Part shown: positions 51,459 through 64,000 of the stretch, piece by piece | Layout: each line of letters begins with the position of its first letter | How positions within the stretch are numbered: position 1 is the stretch's first letter | Origin: an uncultured Porticoccus sp. | GTDB taxonomy: Bacteria > Pseudomonadota > Gammaproteobacteria > Pseudomonadales > Porticoccaceae | Reading direction: 5' to 3' | NCBI RefSeq assembly: GCF_913061305.1 | Contig: NZ_CAJXST010000007.1 | Span: 124,001 to 188,000, forward strand | Length of the DNA: 64,000 nt | Translations under genes and position numbers: made by a program | Notes under the pieces: generated by a model | Databases searched by the model: none | Seen by the model: only the letters and a program-made list of their open reading frames with translations | Told to the model about the DNA's origin: nothing

Positions 51459-53465
51459 TCAGGCTATACGGTCAGCAGCCCAGCTGGCAAAGGCCATTTC
51501 TTTGACGTTTTGCAATTCTTCCTCTGCCACACCCCAGACAGCATTGGATGTGAGCGGGTCGTCGTGAAAAATATACAGCCGGGAGGCCAGCTGATTGAAC
51601 GGCAGCGAGGACTCGCCATAGCGCTCCCCATTGTCCTGGGTTGAGACCTTGATGCCATTGCCCCAGTTTTGCCCACTGTCATTGTTCGGGTTATAGAAAT
51701 AAACCCGCATTTCTCCCGACTGATCGAGCGCCACACGCAGGATGGTAATGGCATGCCAGCCCACAAACCGCGCCGAGCTGTCGGTAACCGCCAACCCTGC
51801 CGGCTGGGGGTGAATCACCAACTGGTTGCCATTGTTGAGAGGATGATAACAGGCAAAGAAATTGCGTAGAAAACCATCGTAGTCGTGCAGCCTGCCGGTG
51901 GCCACGTCAACGGCGATATTAAAACCACGACCCACCCACCAGCCGTGAAACTCCGGATTAATCCAACGGTGTGGATCTTCACCACGGTCGGCGCAGAGGC
52001 GTCCCATCTGGAGATAAATACGATCGAGATGTGGTACCAGCAAATTGGAAACCGGATCGCTGTCGATTGGTACAGCCCGCGTCAGGTCCACTGGCAACTC
52101 TGCGGAATTGATGGGCGCGCCTTCAAAGTGCATCAGCATGCCATCAAAATGCCCAACCTGATCAATCAGATGCAGCAGGTAGTCGGGGGCGTTGAACGAC
52201 CACATGGAAATTGCCCGCACCGACTGACAGGTGGGGTTGTTGCCCTGTCCGAGACCCAGGGGCTGCCCAAGTACAGAAATGGTCCCGGCCAGCAAGAAGA
52301 CCCGTGCGGGCAGCGCCTGACCAAAGGCTGCACTGATGGTGGCGTTGGCATTCTCGGAAAGATCCAGCGATATCTGCCGCCAAAGACCGGGGCCAATCGG
52401 CGGGATGAACAGGACGCCGCGCTCCAGCAGCATGGCCAGCCCGTAAACCGCCTGAGCCGTTTCAGGATAAATCGCTTCCTCTATCAGCTGATAAACCAGC
52501 TTGCTGTAACACTGCAGTGAATCCAGCCCGGTATTGCTCAGACCCAGCGCATCGGGAATCAACTCAACCCGTTCATTTTCCAACAGCCAGCGCAAAAATG
52601 CCGCGTGGTAATCGGAGACCAGTCCCACATCGTGCATGGCCCGGGCAAACCCGCGGGCTTCCTGCTGCAGGGCATTGAAATCCATCGCGGCGAGATACGC
52701 CCGATAGTGGGGTATTCCAAGATCATCCAGGCTGGTCTTGGTGGGTCCGAACAACGCCGAGATCAACCGGTCTGCACCGAGGCGGGCATCACCGAGACTG
52801 TAATCGCCCCTGGCCAGCGTAATCGCGATCTGGGTGATCATGGCTTTGACGTGGCCGACCTGGATCGGACGCTGACCGAGAATACGCCAGATTTCATCGG
52901 TGAGATTGCCCAGAATATCCTCGTAGCCGACGTGCTCCACCAGAAAATGCAGCAGGTCATTAACCACCTGCGTCATATCCGGCTGACTCTGCCGTTCCGC
53001 CTCGGAAACACCGGCAGAAAACACTTTGCTCAGATTGTGGGCCAGCACCTGGGAGAGAAAATGGTGGGCCTGCTCTGCTGAAAATCCGGTCCGGACATAG
53101 CTGCCATTGGCCACTGACAGTGCCCGCAACTGGCTGAGACATTCAATCACAAGCGTCTGCCGGTCACCCAGCTCGAGGGTATTGGCCACCAGACTGGCCA
53201 GCAGCGTTTTCGGATCCTGCCAGTCGGTGCCCAAAAACACCCCGGCGCGGTCGAGTCTGGGCGCCCACAGATAGAGCCGCTCAATCCCCCCCGGCTGCAT
53301 CATCAATCGACGACAGAGTTCGAGCACCTGCGGCGTCGCCGCGGGTTTGGCGAAATCCCGACTGCGTTCCAGCCGGCCAACCGCCTGCTCCAGGGAGTTT
53401 TCAATCACATCAGCCAGCTCATCTGAGCTGGCGACAGGGCCCGTTTCCGGGGAAACCTCAGACAT
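51459..53465 (-). CDS. Large protein of unknown family with papain-like C-terminal half
   Basis: 668 residues; I do not recognise the family. No signal peptide or membrane helix. Residues 1-400 look all-helical. The C-terminal part turns beta-rich and carries a possible Gln-Cys-His-Asn site: Q407 and C413 six residues apart in GLGQGNNPTCQSVRAISMW (as Q19/C25 in papain), then H571 in VGWHAITILRV, then N592 (or D596) in YFYNPNNDSGQNWGNG. The order and flanking strands fit a papain-fold peptidase, transglutaminase or acyltransferase; this is inference. Its ATG overlaps the stop of the ATP-grasp gene by eight bases (ATGTCTGA), so the two are made together. Confidence 0.85.
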   Translation of the reverse strand: MSEVSPETGPVASSDELADVIENSLEQAVGRLERSRDFAKPAATPQVLELCRRLMMQPGGIERLYLWAPRLDRAGVFLGTDWQDPKTLLASLVANTLELGDRQTLVIECLSQLRALSVANGSYVRTGFSAEQAHHFLSQVLAHNLSKVFSAGVSEAERQSQPDMTQVVNDLLHFLVEHVGYEDILGNLTDEIWRILGQRPIQVGHVKAMITQIAITLARGDYSLGDARLGADRLISALFGPTKTSLDDLGIPHYRAYLAAMDFNALQQEARGFARAMHDVGLVSDYHAAFLRWLLENERVELIPDALGLSNTGLDSLQCYSKLVYQLIEEAIYPETAQAVYGLAMLLERGVLFIPPIGPGLWRQISLDLSENANATISAAFGQALPARVFLLAGTISVLGQPLGLGQGNNPTCQSVRAISMWSFNAPDYLLHLIDQVGHFDGMLMHFEGAPINSAELPVDLTRAVPIDSDPVSNLLVPHLDRIYLQMGRLCADRGEDPHRWINPEFHGWWVGRGFNIAVDVATGRLHDYDGFLRNFFACYHPLNNGNQLVIHPQPAGLAVTDSSARFVGWHAITILRVALDQSGEMRVYFYNPNNDSGQNWGNGIKVSTQDNGERYGESSLPFNQLASRLYIFHDDPLTSNAVWGVAEEELQNVKEMAFASWAADRIA

Positions 53466-54684
53466 AAAAATCCAGTTCTTCCTGATACTTCAGCAAATCG
53501 CGCATCCTGTAGGGCTCCGCGCCGAAGAAATATACCAGCCCCCAGTGCGTACCGAATGCCGAACGCTTGGTGACCTTGTTTTCCTGCGGGGCCTGCAACT
53601 CATGAAACTCGAAGTACTCATGTTGCTCCGTCTCTTCCGGAATACGCAATTCACTCACGACCCGACGGCGCGGATAGACCCCGAAACACCCGGCATGGCC
53701 TTTCGCATCCACTACTTCTTTGGGGAAAAATGCCGTAATTTCCTCTTCCGTGGTGTGCGGATCAAATGCCAGCACCATGCCCTGATAGGCATTAAAGCCA
53801 TAGGCCCGCTCCAGCAATTCAAACACTTTAAAGCCCGGCGGACGGTAGGCCACCTCACCAAAATACATTTTACCGTCTTTGGTGACAAAATATTCCGGGT
53901 GAATGAAACCGAAATCAATATCAAATGTTTCAATCAGTTTTTCTATTTCTTCCTCAATGCGGGGTCGCCACTTCTCCAGCTCAGGGGACGCCGGCACAAA
54001 CACCGAGTAACCGAGGGTGACGTATTCGGAAATATTCAGAAAACGGATTTTACGGTCGTGAATCCAGGCTTCGACGGCAAACTCCCAGCCATCCAGATGG
54101 CTCTCCATCAAAAATGGGAACTCGTCTTCAGGAATAGCCTGGACATCATCGGGGGTTCTGACAACCCGATGGCCGAGACAACCGGCCTTGTCAAAGGCCT
54201 TCAGGTGAATCGGATCATTGGGGTCACCATCCAGCTTGAGCAACGCCTGATTGACGCGTTTAAGAAAATGAATGACATCCGATTTGTCATGCGCCTCTTC
54301 AAAAATACCGACACGAATACCACCCAGTTGCGCACGACGCTTCATCAGCGCTTTGTCGCGAAACAGCAACGACTGCCCCATCAAACGGGGGTTTTTCATC
54401 AACACCGCATTGATCGCACCTGCCCATTCCACCGTTTCCTCGAACAGCGGGATGGCGACATCCACGCCCTCATCCTGCAAGGTCTGAGCAATTTCCATGG
54501 AGCGATCATTCAGCCGTTCAAAGTTCCAGGGGATATAGGGAATATTGTGCTTTGTTGCATATTCCTCCGCCCATGGCGGAGCAATGACCACGTAACGCCG
54601 GTCCATTCTGTCCACGGCATCAATAGCATTTAGCGACCAGCCCAGTAAGGCAACATAGCCTTTTTCCTGATTCTTTGCTGACAT
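53458..54684 (-). CDS. ATP-grasp ligase of unknown substrate
   Basis: 408 residues; GGAGG lies seven bases before the chosen ATG. ATP-grasp signs: nucleotide-binding strand region HLKAFDKAGCLGHRVVR, FPFLMESHLDGWEFAVEAWI, and the Mg-binding end FIHPEYFVTKDGKMYFGEVAYRPPG, where Glu and Arg/Asn-like positions bind metal and phosphate. The N-terminal pre-grasp domain begins GYVALLGWSLNAIDAVDRM. Such enzymes join a carboxylate to an amine or thiol through an acyl phosphate. Substrate cannot be read. It forms a tight two-gene unit with the 668-residue protein. Confidence 0.85.
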   Translation of the reverse strand: MSAKNQEKGYVALLGWSLNAIDAVDRMDRRYVVIAPPWAEEYATKHNIPYIPWNFERLNDRSMEIAQTLQDEGVDVAIPLFEETVEWAGAINAVLMKNPRLMGQSLLFRDKALMKRRAQLGGIRVGIFEEAHDKSDVIHFLKRVNQALLKLDGDPNDPIHLKAFDKAGCLGHRVVRTPDDVQAIPEDEFPFLMESHLDGWEFAVEAWIHDRKIRFLNISEYVTLGYSVFVPASPELEKWRPRIEEEIEKLIETFDIDFGFIHPEYFVTKDGKMYFGEVAYRPPGFKVFELLERAYGFNAYQGMVLAFDPHTTEEEITAFFPKEVVDAKGHAGCFGVYPRRRVVSELRIPEETEQHEYFEFHELQAPQENKVTKRSAFGTHWGLVYFFGAEPYRMRDLLKYQEELDFYV

Positions 54685-54987
54685 AAAAAAACCTCCGGAT
54701 AACACTTATTTCTGTGCCTTTTTTTCATCAAAAAAGTGAATTAACGACGCTTGATAACCAGTGAAACCTGGTAAAAGGAAAGGCACTTCAGAGACCAGTG
54801 TGGCCCATTCAGGGGTCAAAGATCAAATAAGCGGCCTTTTGGAAATTGCAATAGAAACACGGGATTAGTGGCGATTCAGCGCCGTTGAACAGCCTTCGAC
54901 AGGGCTCGATGCAGCTACATAATCAGGATCGGCGGGCAACAAAAGTTCATCGCCAAAATGCCCGTACAGCGAGGCCAGATCACCCGC
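54685..54987. other. Intergenic region between icmF and the ATP-grasp gene
   Basis: About 300 bases with no gene on either strand and no clear T-run terminator. The stretch next to the ATP-grasp gene is T/A-rich and probably holds its promoter. Confidence 0.6.
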
Positions 54988-59555: not shown

Positions 59556-60080
59556 GTGTCCGCTTCAAGTCTTGAACACATAGCTGAAGATTTAATTTCT
59601 CACGCTTTGCAACGAAAAAATGTTTTAGTTGCAAAACCGAAATTTGACCACAATGGTGCAGACTTGCTAGCTTTTCTAGACGTTTCTGATGGAGCAAAGT
59701 TTTGTCGTATTCAATGCAAGGGGCGCTCGCTGCTACAAACTCCAAAATCACATATTGAAATTGCATCTGACTACGCAACGGATGGATTAGTTGTGATTTT
59801 GTTCATCGAAGATGGGAGTCCAGTCGAAGAATCTTTGTATTGCTTTTTTGGCAAGGAAATTAGACTGTGGAATAAAACTAATAATCATAAGTATCGATTG
59901 AGCTTTACTAAAAAAAGCCATAGAAAGAAACTTTATCCTTATAGATTTTCTCCAAAAAAAATTAATGAAGTCATTAAGTGCATTATAGATGTTAATGTTT
60001 CTGGTGAATTCAAACACATGGAGCATGGATATGCAGAATTCGTTCTTCCTCCAATTTCATTTGAAGGGAAAATGAGTTAA
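59556..60080 (+). CDS. Possible PD-(D/E)XK nuclease-like protein in an AT-rich island
   Basis: 174 residues, GTG start with AGGAA six bases upstream. Family not recognised. The N-terminal half has the layout of a restriction-endonuclease fold: a helix (SLEHIAEDLISHALQRKNVLVAKP), then HNGADLLAFLDV with a possible catalytic Asp, then CRIQCKGRS with a Q-x-K in the next strand. This pattern occurs in Holliday-resolvase-like and restriction-like proteins. Base composition is clearly more AT-rich than the flanking genes, with Lys/Asn/Ile codons ending in A or T, which points to recent transfer. It stands alone, with no methyltransferase nearby. Confidence 0.65.
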   Translation: MSASSLEHIAEDLISHALQRKNVLVAKPKFDHNGADLLAFLDVSDGAKFCRIQCKGRSLLQTPKSHIEIASDYATDGLVVILFIEDGSPVEESLYCFFGKEIRLWNKTNNHKYRLSFTKKSHRKKLYPYRFSPKKINEVIKCIIDVNVSGEFKHMEHGYAEFVLPPISFEGKMS

Positions 60081-60586: not shown

Positions 60587-60605
60587 TCATCTATTACCGG
60601 GTTTT
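60574..60605 (-). terminator. Possible terminator of the CapA-MurF gene
   Basis: AAAACCC and GGGTTTT arms separated by 18 bases, with a T-run after, overlapping the stop codon on the minus strand. The long loop makes it weak. Confidence 0.4.
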
Positions 60606-63600
60606 GATACTTCCCCCACCAGCCTACCCACCAACCTGTCCAGCTTCACGCCATTTGATCCCTTGATCAGCACCGTGTCTCCATCCTTGAGCCACTGATC
60701 CAGATCATCTGCCAGGGAATCGACGTTTTCAAACCATATGCATCTGTTTTCAAATTGATTAGAGAAAACAAGTTTGGCCCAGAGAACTTTCATCAAATTA
60801 CCGCACAGCAGTATCCGATCTGGCTGTAGCACCTGTAGAGGCTCGGCCAACTCACGATGGTAGTCGGCAGCATTATCACCAAGCTCCAACATATCGCCAA
60901 GAATCAGGACTATGTTCGAGCTTGCCGCTCTTGACTGCATTGAGCTAATGGCCATTTTTACCGAGAGGGGGTTGGCGTTGTAGGAGTGGTCAATGATGGT
61001 AATTCTTTTGCACAGGTACACAATTGAATGCACTTTGCCGCGGCCGTCAACGGATTGAAACCGTTGCAACGTAGGCAAAAAATCATTCACGCCCTTGCCG
61101 AGAATTTTCCTCACTGCGATACAGGCCAGGCTGTTCAGCACCATGTGCAGGCCTTCGGCCTGAAGCCTGTAGGCACAAACCGTACCATCGCCTCCTATCA
61201 CCGCCCGGACATTGCCGGAAACCGGGTCATACTGCTCGAGGCGCACATCTGCATCCTCACCCGTGCCATAGGTCATGACATTGAGACCACGTGCCTGGGC
61301 GCGGTTTCGTAGATAATCGAAATATTCCGTTTCGCGGTAAAGGACAATCCAGCCGCCTTCCGCCACTCCCTCCATGATATTCCCCTTACGCCGCGCCACA
61401 TAGGCCAGGCTCTCACCGGGGGGCAGGTGTGACGGTGCGATATTGGTGATCACCGCGATGTCTGGCCGCACCAGTTTGATATGTTGAAAACCCGGCGAAT
61501 TGATGGCACTGACGGCAGTCTCCATAACAACGAGATCGGTGGTTTCCAGCGTATTCGCCAGCAAATGCAGTATGCCGCAGCGGGAGTTGTAATTGTTGGC
61601 GGCGTTGGTCGCTACGCGGCTGTCTGCGGACATGGCCTGCGCCAGCATGCCGCACAGGGAGGTTTTACCCGCACTGCCGGTTATGGCCACCACCTTGCCA
61701 AGCAGACGTTGCCGGCTGGCGACACCCAACTCCATCAACGCGCCCAAGGGATCGTCCACCTGCAGCAGGGGCAATGTAGGGTCCAACCCGTCGATGGGGC
61801 CGGCAATGATCGCACCATCAATCTGTGCCTGTATCTTCGGCACCCTGGCATGCATGTCCCAGTGCTTGCCCGACAACTTACTGAAAAGTTCATGCTTAGC
61901 CGCCATACGGGCGTCCGTGGCCACAAACATCCGGGGTCTGGCGCGCTCTTCACTCAGAAGAAAGGTTGGTTTATTTGAGAGCGCGCGGATATACCATTCT
62001 GGCGGTGGCTCCTGCAGCCACCTGCCCCCCGTGATTTTCTGAAGCTGTTCCGCAGTCCACAGCCTCTCGTCAGGGGCACCGACAAGCTGATCCTTAGGAA
62101 ATACCCTGTACTGCGGAGGAAAGGCGCGCAAGACGGCGAACGCTTCCCGGGGGTTGAGAGCAAACTTCGCAGAAACCGGCAAATAAACCCGATCAGTCAC
62201 AGCCGCCGCCGCCTTCAAACGCACAGAAAGCTGTAGCGTCGCATCCTGCCAATGTTTAATGCTTGGTGGGCGCAATGCATACTGATCACGATAGATAGCA
62301 CCCCTCTGCCATCGGCTGGTTGGCCACATCCAATCACAGGGATCGTGGTCGCATGAAGCGCCCCAATGGCCGAGCCTGGAATCTGATTCGGGATGCGCCT
62401 GAAAGTCCAGCCGCCAGTCCTCATCCGTTGTCTCCACCAATCGCCAATAGGACTCAATAAATAGAGAACCGCGTCTGGTGAGCTTTCCGGGCGACACCTT
62501 TACGCCAAGCAGTTCCAGGGGGCCCAGCCGGGTCGGGGTTTCAAGCTTCGCTTCTTCCGGAACGCCGTCGGCAAGCCAATCGGGCCGCGGTTCGCCCAAT
62601 GCAGACATGGGGAAAGATGACTTCACCCCGTCGTCCAGCCCAGACTCCAGTTCGACTGTAAACTGAGTCGCTTTTCCCGTCGCGCTCCGCTCACCGGGAG
62701 CGAGGGCAAGGATGCCCTCGCTCTCACCCAAGCTTGTCAATTCCGTGCCCAGGTTGGCGCATTTTACCGAAAAGCGCTCAATGGCCTGTTTGGCATTTAC
62801 CCCCGACAGGAGAGTCGTGCGGCAAAAGCCGATATCTACCGGGTGGAATCTGACACGGCTGACTCCTGCTTTATCAATATCCAGGGAAAAGACGCCAGAG
62901 TCCGTACTTTGTCGCTGGATTGCATCGAAAAATAAATCCCCGGCATCGTGAATAATGGGGCGGGAGCGATATACCTCAATCCCTTGCAGCATGTGTGCCG
63001 AGGCGCCGAGCACAGCATCGGCGCCGGCATCGATGAGCGCGTGTCCCGCAGCGATTTTAGCCTTGCCGGGTGATGCCTTATTGTTGGCCCCCCAGTGCAC
63101 GGCCACCAAAACGACATCTACCTCTTGCCGGGCGGCCTGAAACAGAGGTGTCAGATTGGCTCGCCATTGGTCCGGGTTGTCCAAGGAGAAATAGGCGTGC
63201 CCAGGAGTATCCCCGGTAGCGGCGAAGGATGACTGCGTCGCGTCAATGGAAAAAACAGCAATGCCCAGATCACCGACTCGTCGAATAACTGGCCGCAGGG
63301 CGCTCTGCAAATTGGCGCCAGTGCCAACGGACCCGATACCTGCTGCATCGAGCCATTGCGCCTGCTCCAGAAGAGCTTCCGGGCCGTAGTCTCCACTGTG
63401 ATTGTTTGCCGTGGCAACGATATCAACACCGCCATCCAGCAATGCTTGCAACATTTCCGGTCGCGCCCGGTAATAGTATGAAGCACGCTCACCCTTATCA
63501 AGCCCCGGTACTCCGCTGGTGGCTACCACGCACTCGAGATTGACGATACCGATATCGGCATTCTGCAGCGGCGTCAGCCCGCCCATTCCTGCGGAGACCT

Positions 63601-63709
63601 TCCCTTCACAATGGCGATAATGAAAACGACGCCCCAAGTTAACATCACCACCCCAAGCAACTGTCACGCAACCGCTTGACCGCCCCCCTCCCAGAGTTCC
63701 AAACCCCAT
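60587..63709 (-). CDS. CapA-like phosphoesterase fused to a MurF-like amide ligase
   Basis: 1040 residues from an ATG with AAGGAG six bases upstream. Part 1 (about 12-330): CapA/PgsA-like calcineurin fold with WGGDVNLGRRF, IVNLEC, TANNHSGDYG, VHWGANN, ASAHMLQGIEVY and DAGDLFFD. Part 2 (about 390-520): beta-rich segment with WMWPTSRWQRGAIYRDQYALRPP, like a beta-sandwich. Part 3 (about 548-1035): complete MurF module, N-domain from LWTAEQLQKITGGRW, P-loop VAITGSAGKTS, ITNIAPSHL, ARRKGNIMEG, IDHSYNANPLSVKMA and LGDMLELGDNAADYH. MurF normally adds D-Ala-D-Ala to the murein precursor. CapA with a Mur-like ligase (CapB) makes poly-gamma-glutamate. No signal peptide or membrane anchor is visible, unlike CapA. 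Substrate unknown. Confidence 0.92.
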   Translation of the reverse strand: MGFGTLGGGRSSGCVTVAWGGDVNLGRRFHYRHCEGKVSAGMGGLTPLQNADIGIVNLECVVATSGVPGLDKGERASYYYRARPEMLQALLDGGVDIVATANNHSGDYGPEALLEQAQWLDAAGIGSVGTGANLQSALRPVIRRVGDLGIAVFSIDATQSSFAATGDTPGHAYFSLDNPDQWRANLTPLFQAARQEVDVVLVAVHWGANNKASPGKAKIAAGHALIDAGADAVLGASAHMLQGIEVYRSRPIIHDAGDLFFDAIQRQSTDSGVFSLDIDKAGVSRVRFHPVDIGFCRTTLLSGVNAKQAIERFSVKCANLGTELTSLGESEGILALAPGERSATGKATQFTVELESGLDDGVKSSFPMSALGEPRPDWLADGVPEEAKLETPTRLGPLELLGVKVSPGKLTRRGSLFIESYWRLVETTDEDWRLDFQAHPESDSRLGHWGASCDHDPCDWMWPTSRWQRGAIYRDQYALRPPSIKHWQDATLQLSVRLKAAAAVTDRVYLPVSAKFALNPREAFAVLRAFPPQYRVFPKDQLVGAPDERLWTAEQLQKITGGRWLQEPPPEWYIRALSNKPTFLLSEERARPRMFVATDARMAAKHELFSKLSGKHWDMHARVPKIQAQIDGAIIAGPIDGLDPTLPLLQVDDPLGALMELGVASRQRLLGKVVAITGSAGKTSLCGMLAQAMSADSRVATNAANNYNSRCGILHLLANTLETTDLVVMETAVSAINSPGFQHIKLVRPDIAVITNIAPSHLPPGESLAYVARRKGNIMEGVAEGGWIVLYRETEYFDYLRNRAQARGLNVMTYGTGEDADVRLEQYDPVSGNVRAVIGGDGTVCAYRLQAEGLHMVLNSLACIAVRKILGKGVNDFLPTLQRFQSVDGRGKVHSIVYLCKRITIIDHSYNANPLSVKMAISSMQSRAASSNIVLILGDMLELGDNAADYHRELAEPLQVLQPDRILLCGNLMKVLWAKLVFSNQFENRCIWFENVDSLADDLDQWLKDGDTVLIKGSNGVKLDRLVGRLVGEVSKPGNR

Positions 63710-64000
63710 ACTTCGCTCCTTCCCCCGACTTCTGAATATTATCTTCTGAGACGCGCAGGCAGACAATTTGCACATACTTCCTACAACTTACGGGTGGTTA
63801 TCGCACCTCTCCTGTTGCCAGATGAAATTCCGCTGACTGTTGCTCAAAAAAACAACCATCATGGGATTACTGAGACATGATCATTATTTTTATTCGCGGC
63901 TGTAAATTGTTTATTCAAAGATCTTCTGAGGAAAAACTTATTGTTCCATTGATGCCAACGCCTCTACCGGGAACTACTCGTCATCAGCAAACACAGAGCC
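63710..64000. other. Upstream region of the CapA-MurF gene at the window end
   Basis: About 290 bases with no gene seen. It is AT-rich around 63870-63950 and should contain the promoter of the CapA-MurF gene. Confidence 0.5.

Follow-up and report, generated by a model that had tools for sequence, protein, structure and literature searches.

A CapA-Mur ligase fusion protein of an uncultured Porticoccus sp. as a likely member of a toroid-based system for modifying Asp-X adhesin tracts

The 64,000-nucleotide stretch of an uncultured Porticoccus sp. analysed here (contig NZ_CAJXST010000007.1, C7 below; the whole stretch is hereafter the window) encodes a protein, P0001, in which a CapA-like domain, a beta-rich middle part and a Mur-type ligase are joined. 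The fusion gene very likely belongs to a system that modifies Asp-X tracts of adhesins, such as (Asp-Ala)n or (Ser-Asp)n, together with an (alpha/alpha)6-barrel protein here called the toroid. We give even odds to the fuller reading, namely a cytoplasmic enzyme that modifies such tracts with the toroid and whose Mur part amidates Asp.

P0001 is read from one uninterrupted frame without internal stop (Table 1). An alternative in-frame ATG at 63775 would give 1062 residues; the start at 63709, used in the preliminary description of the window, is plausible because AAGGAG, which resembles a ribosome-binding site, directly precedes the ATG there. Three Pfam domains lie above their curated cut-offs: PGA_cap (PF09587; E 8.1e-55, 186.5 bits against a cut-off of 27), Mur_ligase_M (E 1.3e-29) and Mur_ligase_C (E 1.1e-15). 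The structure model, built on a 22-row alignment (mean pLDDT 85.4, pTM 0.71), renders the middle part as strands, seven of them between residues 388 and 516, and this part holds HDPCDWMWP (residues 455-463), invariant among the aligned relatives. Hence the three-part architecture first read from the translation holds, as do the ligase motifs GSAGKTS, SYNANP and GDMLELG, all present. No membrane anchor is seen when the translation is read by eye (no anchor predictor was used), which agrees with the preliminary description and with a cytoplasmic protein.

Relatives of the fusion are encoded at 42 loci found by a scan of GTDB contigs, in Variovorax, Paracoccus, Alcaligenes, Celeribacter, Pseudogemmobacter, Xylophilus, Pseudacidovorax, Desulfovibrio and others. 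By matched ranges, 33 run from CapA to Mur as in P0001, three have the order Mur-CapA (L040, L044, L045), three end near residues 840-884 (L010, L029, L038) and three lack the Mur part (L034, L036, L037). An artificial joining of two genes by a sequencing error, a danger named at the outset, is ruled out by these 42 related loci, 33 of them with the same part order. No further fusion was found among 96 relatives of the same genus, family and order, and of 369 genomes sampled from the class, the Porticoccus genome alone was matched past the CapA part (the matches in 46 others all end by residue 346 of a 560-residue query). Thus, the gene is rare and patchily distributed, a pattern like that left by horizontal transfer.

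The ligase is MurF-like rather than CapB-like, as first proposed: P0001 scores 258.9 bits with the NCBIfam murF profile TIGR01143 and 13.5 bits with the PgsB profile, and its model matches MurF structures (best E 1.1e-33; 4qf5_B, TM score by target 0.85). Its middle and C-terminal domains and its core residues mark it as a member of the Mur ligase superfamily. In the 22-row alignment K682 is kept in 21 rows, E730 in 22 and K775 in 20; these correspond to the P-loop Lys, the Mg-binding Glu and the carbamylated-Lys position. The match to TIGR01143, however, falls under the cut-off of 288.6 bits, and the genome has a separate murF beyond the window on the same contig (G000:C7:111253-112509), ~73 kb off, in keeping with the initial remark that the fusion gene is far from any mur cluster.

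The maximum-likelihood tree (45 rows) has a branch with 96/92 support between 19 MurF rows and 25 rows of the system (P0001, 15 fusion loci and nine others), and P0001 joins Celeribacter, Paracoccus, Alcaligenes and Pseudogemmobacter rows (100/99). Twenty MurF loci had been fetched, of which L063 was removed by a motif filter. The D[ST]R motif of MurF, which lies in the UDP-MurNAc-binding N-terminal domain, occurs in 19/19 MurF rows and 0/25 system rows, and a second MurF motif in 17/19 and 0/25. In the long-gene group of Variovorax, SYNAN is changed to SWNAE. An ordinary MurF identity is ruled out by the position outside MurF and the missing D[ST]R. The preliminary description had considered a ligase inside MurF in a genome with no second murF, and neither is the case; of the tree it proposed, the comparison with MurF yielded this separate clade, whereas CapB was not included.

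The toroid accompanies the fusion. Its gene was present in 39/39 fusion genomes searched, from a search taking in 40 of the 43 fusion loci (L018, L033 and L036, omitted, are second loci of listed genomes) and not covering L025. By comparison, it occurs in 5/369 class-sample genomes, the Porticoccus genome included and two being partial matches, and in 3/97 relatives of that genome. At the Alcaligenes locus L006, a type I secretion system (T1SS) ATP-binding cassette (ABC) transporter, a membrane fusion protein (MFP), a 582-residue toroid without Pfam match, an alpha/beta hydrolase and a membrane protein precede the fusion. After it come another Mur gene, which matches Peptidase_S11 weakly, and a Ddl gene. 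The toroid can also form the N-terminal part of a single ~1590-residue protein, as in Variovorax and at L008, L041 and L043; fused or adjoining arrangements comprise toroid-CapA-middle-Mur, toroid-Mur, and toroid followed by CapA-Mur. In Paracoccus denitrificans (L121) a single cluster contains both the fusion and a (DA)n adhesin operon. As a side observation, the protein between hydrolase and fusion in L006 (L006:8130-9974) is a conserved 614-residue protein with membrane segments and no Pfam match, with relatives in L004, L010, L011, L038 and L185.

The Porticoccus toroid (G000:C11:8434-10713) is 52% identical to that of Alcaligenes over the matched stretch. On its contig, C11, it follows the end of a (DA)n adhesin at the contig start, a TolC-like gene, an LssB-type ABC transporter gene and an MFP gene. 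The earlier finding of no relevant neighbours therefore stands at the fusion locus, where the adjacent open reading frames (ORFs) are uninformative, but not for the system, whose partner toroid sits in this T1SS adhesin operon and is neighbour or fused elsewhere. Other loci also have an alpha/beta-hydrolase partner, for which a search of the Porticoccus genome gave no match. The toroid model (mean pLDDT 88.2) matches (alpha/alpha)6 barrels, namely cellobiose and N-acylglucosamine 2-epimerases (the latter abbreviated AGE), GH76 and GH105, with E of ~1e-6 to 1e-5 and TM scores by target up to ~0.65; by sequence, no match was found in the PDB. The Porticoccus toroid also has a C-terminal extension of 219 residues (L067:10054-10713), without match in PDB or Pfam, which shares 46% identity with a V. 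paradoxus gene that neighbours Mur and toroid genes (L174:10753-11439). This gene matches Asp/Asn beta-hydroxylase (26.9 bits against a cut-off of 22.6), while in the extension the iron ligands look lost by eye, as in a degenerate copy.

(Asp-Ala)n or (Ser-Asp)n tracts are encoded next to toroid genes in bacteria as far apart as Pseudomonadota, Listeria and staphylococci; a tract is counted here as an Asp-X run of at least 20 residues. A tract is seen in 37 of the 73 fetched toroid loci. Among loci with T1SS ABC and MFP genes, 22/27 with a toroid have a tract against 1/36 without, and that sole tract is (DT)n (Fisher p 3e-11, a guide only, as the rows are related). In 40 control T1SS loci of the class sample without toroid there were no (DA)n tracts and one (DT)n; 17 of the 40 show an adhesin-like ORF with its 5' end in view, so that the strict control for (DA)n is 0/17. 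The second T1SS of the Porticoccus genome (L161) has no tract; beside the toroid, its tract is (DA)n. The toroid surroundings of 19 fusion genomes contain a tract in 16, or in 20/23 when the Porticoccus genome, L008, L041 and L044 are added. Plasmid records with a toroid number 54, and 17 of the 18 read have a tract; among its carriers are LPXTG or Sdr-type proteins from Listeria, Enterococcus and staphylococci. Two single loci deserve mention. The T1SS adhesin of L156 (genome G381) has several hundred residues of (Asp-Thr)n, and no toroid is in view there; this may be a third type of repeat whose chemistry differs. On the Sulfitobacter plasmid L128, a toroid-Mur gene and a BapA-like adhesin have condensation-domain genes on one side and a type I polyketide synthase on the other.

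Computation further shows that the type of partner enzyme switches with the repeat letter, a family 4 glycosyltransferase (GT4, assigned by Pfam) going with Ser-Asp and a Mur or ATP-grasp enzyme with Asp-Ala. The share of Ala at X is 0.00 in K. aerogenes L125 (a toroid-GT4 fusion), 0.00 in S. epidermidis L127 and 0.08 at the S. epidermidis sdrF locus L179. Of the 24 loci that show a Mur or ATP-grasp partner, about a dozen being Variovorax and so not independent, 23 have a share of 0.68-1.00. The ligase loci include S. simulans L171, where an Sdr-type protein with a 1206-residue tract is followed by the toroid and then by a Mur ligase, and Agrobacterium L172, where the toroid is fused to ATP-grasp domains.

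The GT4 loci resemble a known system. According to PMC5230774, GtfC aids the glycosylation of SD repeats, and without gtfC, Pls was glycosylated less (COL genes) or not at all (1061 genes); GtfC has 538 residues, is encoded directly after the adhesin gene and is not a CAZy-predicted glycosyltransferase, the glycosyltransferase gene being convergent. The order in S. epidermidis L127 (toroid of 538 residues, GT4 of 494) is that of Pls-GtfC-GtfD: adhesin, 538-residue protein that CAZy does not recognise as a glycosyltransferase, convergent glycosyltransferase. The glycosylation of SD-repeat adhesins in staphylococci also involves SdgA/SdgB. By length, place and annotation, the staphylococcal toroid is probably GtfC (SACOL0051), although the primers given in that paper brought no confirmation. 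The fusion system differs in its Asp-Ala tract and in the Mur or CapA-Mur ligase in the glycosyltransferase's place. We infer that a core is common to the fusion system and SD-repeat glycosylation, and that what is new is the ligase chemistry. Searches of open-licence PMC papers turned up no description that ties a CapA-Mur fusion, a Mur ligase or Asp-Ala repeats to such adhesin systems.

Regarding the CapA part, its only sequence relatives in the PDB at E 0.01 are entries of MslH, a lasso-peptide C-terminal Trp epimerase, whose calcineurin-like CapA fold the model also matches (8gq9; E 1.4e-23, TM score by target 0.62). With residue roles taken from PMC10406935, E59, N103, H104, D107, H205 and H239 align to Glu44, Asn87, His88, Asp91, His259 and His295 of MslH. 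The dyad His88/Asp91 is thereby matched by H104/D107, and that of His295/Asp11 by H239, with D22 set on Asp11 by position only. Over 22 rows the counts are D22 20, E59 20, N103 20, H104 21, D107 21, H205 22 and H239 22. The score with NF038314, the MslH-type epimerase profile, is 78.5 bits against a curated cut-off of 700, and P0001 differs from MslH in having Gly for His261 and its CapA part joined to a ligase. An acid/base epimerase and a metal hydrolase are both possible from the sequence. Because the closest solved relative in sequence and fold is a peptide epimerase, the CapA part is not necessarily a hydrolase. Hence, of the building and hydrolytic editing of an amide-linked product first suggested, the amide-linked product is still likely, while a CapA hydrolase is not required and the substrate would be the Asp-Ala repeat of an adhesin rather than a free polymer or cofactor.

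In the mechanism we propose, the toroid would handle the Asp-X tract and the partner enzyme would decide the chemistry, GT4 acting on Ser-Asp and a carboxylate-amine ligase (Mur or ATP-grasp) on Asp-Ala. Mur and ATP-grasp enzymes both form amides via acyl phosphates. Since Ala offers no site for attachment, the simplest target for a ligase that serves (Asp-Ala)n would be the Asp carboxylates. The MurF-fold part would thus use ATP to convert Asp beta-carboxylates of the tract into acyl phosphates, to which it would couple an amine; this amine may be an amino acid, a D-Ala-containing dipeptide or an amino sugar; Ddl genes in L004/L121, L006, L011 and L104 are a hint of D-Ala compounds. The MslH-like CapA part may then work on the product, for instance by epimerising or trimming the added residue, before the adhesin is exported by its own T1SS. 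That Asp amidation is the chemistry of the fusion protein seems to us about as probable as its opposite. A parallel is cyanophycin synthetase, whose Mur-type and ATP-grasp domains amidate a poly-Asp; P0001, however, reaches only 23.6 bits with TIGR02068 (cut-off 850), and the tract of the adhesin system is ribosomally encoded.

Several observations weigh against this reading. A toroid without fusion occurs in G015, a genome of the same genus that is 86% complete and whose toroid is 89% identical, and in G075. The Porticoccus fusion is on a different contig from the toroid operon, and just 34 residues of its (DA)n tract are in view, since contig C11 starts there. No tract is in view in 36/73 toroid loci. 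Of these, 25 are Variovorax, viewed within ~10 kb of the gene; L004, L006 and L011 do have a tract once a wider region around them is viewed (L121, L119 and L120); the others are L038, L040, L043, L104, L105, L115, L169 and L174, where L105 and L115 end at contig edges and the L169 plasmid has a 22-residue tract further upstream (L175). As for the partner switch, S. lugdunensis L177 is an exception, with a Ser-rich tract, an Ala share of 0.30 and a mur cut short, and the mur of S. haemolyticus L178 (Ala share 0.74) has no P-loop stretch. The P-loop is degenerate in L072/L105, and the Mur part is absent from L034 and L037. Toroids without a ligase in view occur in Listeria L126, Enterococcus L170 and L181, S. 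capitis L180 and Rhizobium L173; no partner is in view in L106 and L067 either, the latter being the Porticoccus locus, with the fusion elsewhere in the genome. Lastly, the Ca ligand His261 of MslH is replaced by G207, although the equivalents of E44, N87 and H259 are kept.

Among the alternatives, the toroid or another enzyme might first add a sugar acid to the tract, the Mur part then amidating the sugar carboxylate as MurC-F do on muramic acid. The likeness of the toroid fold to AGE-type sugar epimerases, GH76 and GH105 would suit this, as would the help GtfC gives to glycosylation (PMC5230774). Mur ligases, moreover, classically work on a lactyl-sugar peptide. Yet none of the annotated or tested Mur loci (L123, L124, L128, L171) has a glycosyltransferase fused or adjoining, D[ST]R is lost in the system's Mur rows, and ATP-grasp enzymes can stand in for Mur (L172), all of which makes a sugar-first route unlikely, at perhaps one chance in five.

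Slightly less likely still is that P0001 makes and edits a free amide-linked polymer, peptide or cofactor, the adhesin link being mere co-transfer. CapA and the Mur-like CapB cooperate in poly-gamma-glutamate synthesis, a pairing of domains that P0001 shares with CapA/CapB (PgsA/PgsB), and Ddl and a second Mur gene follow the fusion in L006 and L011, with Ddl also in L104. In poly-gamma-glutamate systems, however, CapA is the membrane-anchored partner of CapB, whereas P0001 is one cytoplasmic polypeptide with a ligase that is not PgsB-like and no pgs neighbours within the window. The linkage of toroid and tract, moreover, reaches LPXTG proteins of Listeria and staphylococci, and partner type tracks repeat type. 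A spare or altered MurF for peptidoglycan, which the MurF fold and the TIGR01143 score would favour, is highly improbable given the sub-threshold score, the separate murF, the position outside MurF in the tree and the absence of D[ST]R from 25/25 rows.

Returning to the window, the fusion gene has a GC content of 56.3%, against 35.6% in the ORF on one side and 46.6% in the short ORFs on the other. The fusion and its flanking ORFs sit at an island-like variable site, bounded by an IcmF-like mutase/GntR-type block and by a PPK2-like gene as judged from the translations. Elsewhere, at 51459-54705, two adjoining minus-strand ORFs of 668 and 415 residues lie downstream of a large mutase-like ORF; judged from its translation, the 415-residue one reads like an ATP-grasp enzyme. 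The terminal ORF of contig C7 (196494-196913, in L065) starts PLYSSAASDVYKRQ, which we take to be translated sequencing adapter, a probable remnant at the contig end.

Table 1. Features of the fusion gene and its flanks, in window positions with P0001 residues
Feature	Position	Strand	Basis
CapA-middle-Mur fusion gene, 1040 aa (P0001)	60587..63709	-	ORF translation, Pfam, AAGGAG
CapA / PGA_cap domain, residues 16-262	62924..63664	-	Pfam, MslH alignment, 22-row conservation, fold
Beta-rich middle part, ~residues 376-530	62120..62584	-	Structure model, invariant columns
Mur N-terminal-like part, ~residues 551-670, without MurF D[ST]R	61700..62059	-	NCBIfam profile, tree alignment
Mur ligase middle domain, residues 676-866; GSAGKTS 678-684, E730, K775	61112..61684	-	Pfam, 22-row conservation
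Mur ligase C-terminal domain, residues 901-1018; SYNANP, GDMLELG	60656..61009	-	Translation, Pfam
Low-GC flanking ORFs	59556-60080 (35.6% GC); 64132-65847 (46.6% GC, in L065, past the window)		

At its widest, the proposal is that bacteria of at least three phyla graft amines onto the side chains of Asp in (Asp-Ala)n adhesin tracts that the ribosome makes, much as in cyanophycin, with CapA epimerising or trimming the graft and the same toroid core serving Ser glycosylation on Ser-Asp; this we advance tentatively, at somewhat less than even odds. If true, side-chain amidation of surface adhesins by a Mur-type ligase would be a new post-translational modification and a new role for the Mur fold. 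It would explain the long Asp-Ala runs of T1SS and LPXTG adhesins, give a place to GtfC as a protein that is not a glycosyltransferase, and account for the plasmid 'murF' genes found beside adhesins.

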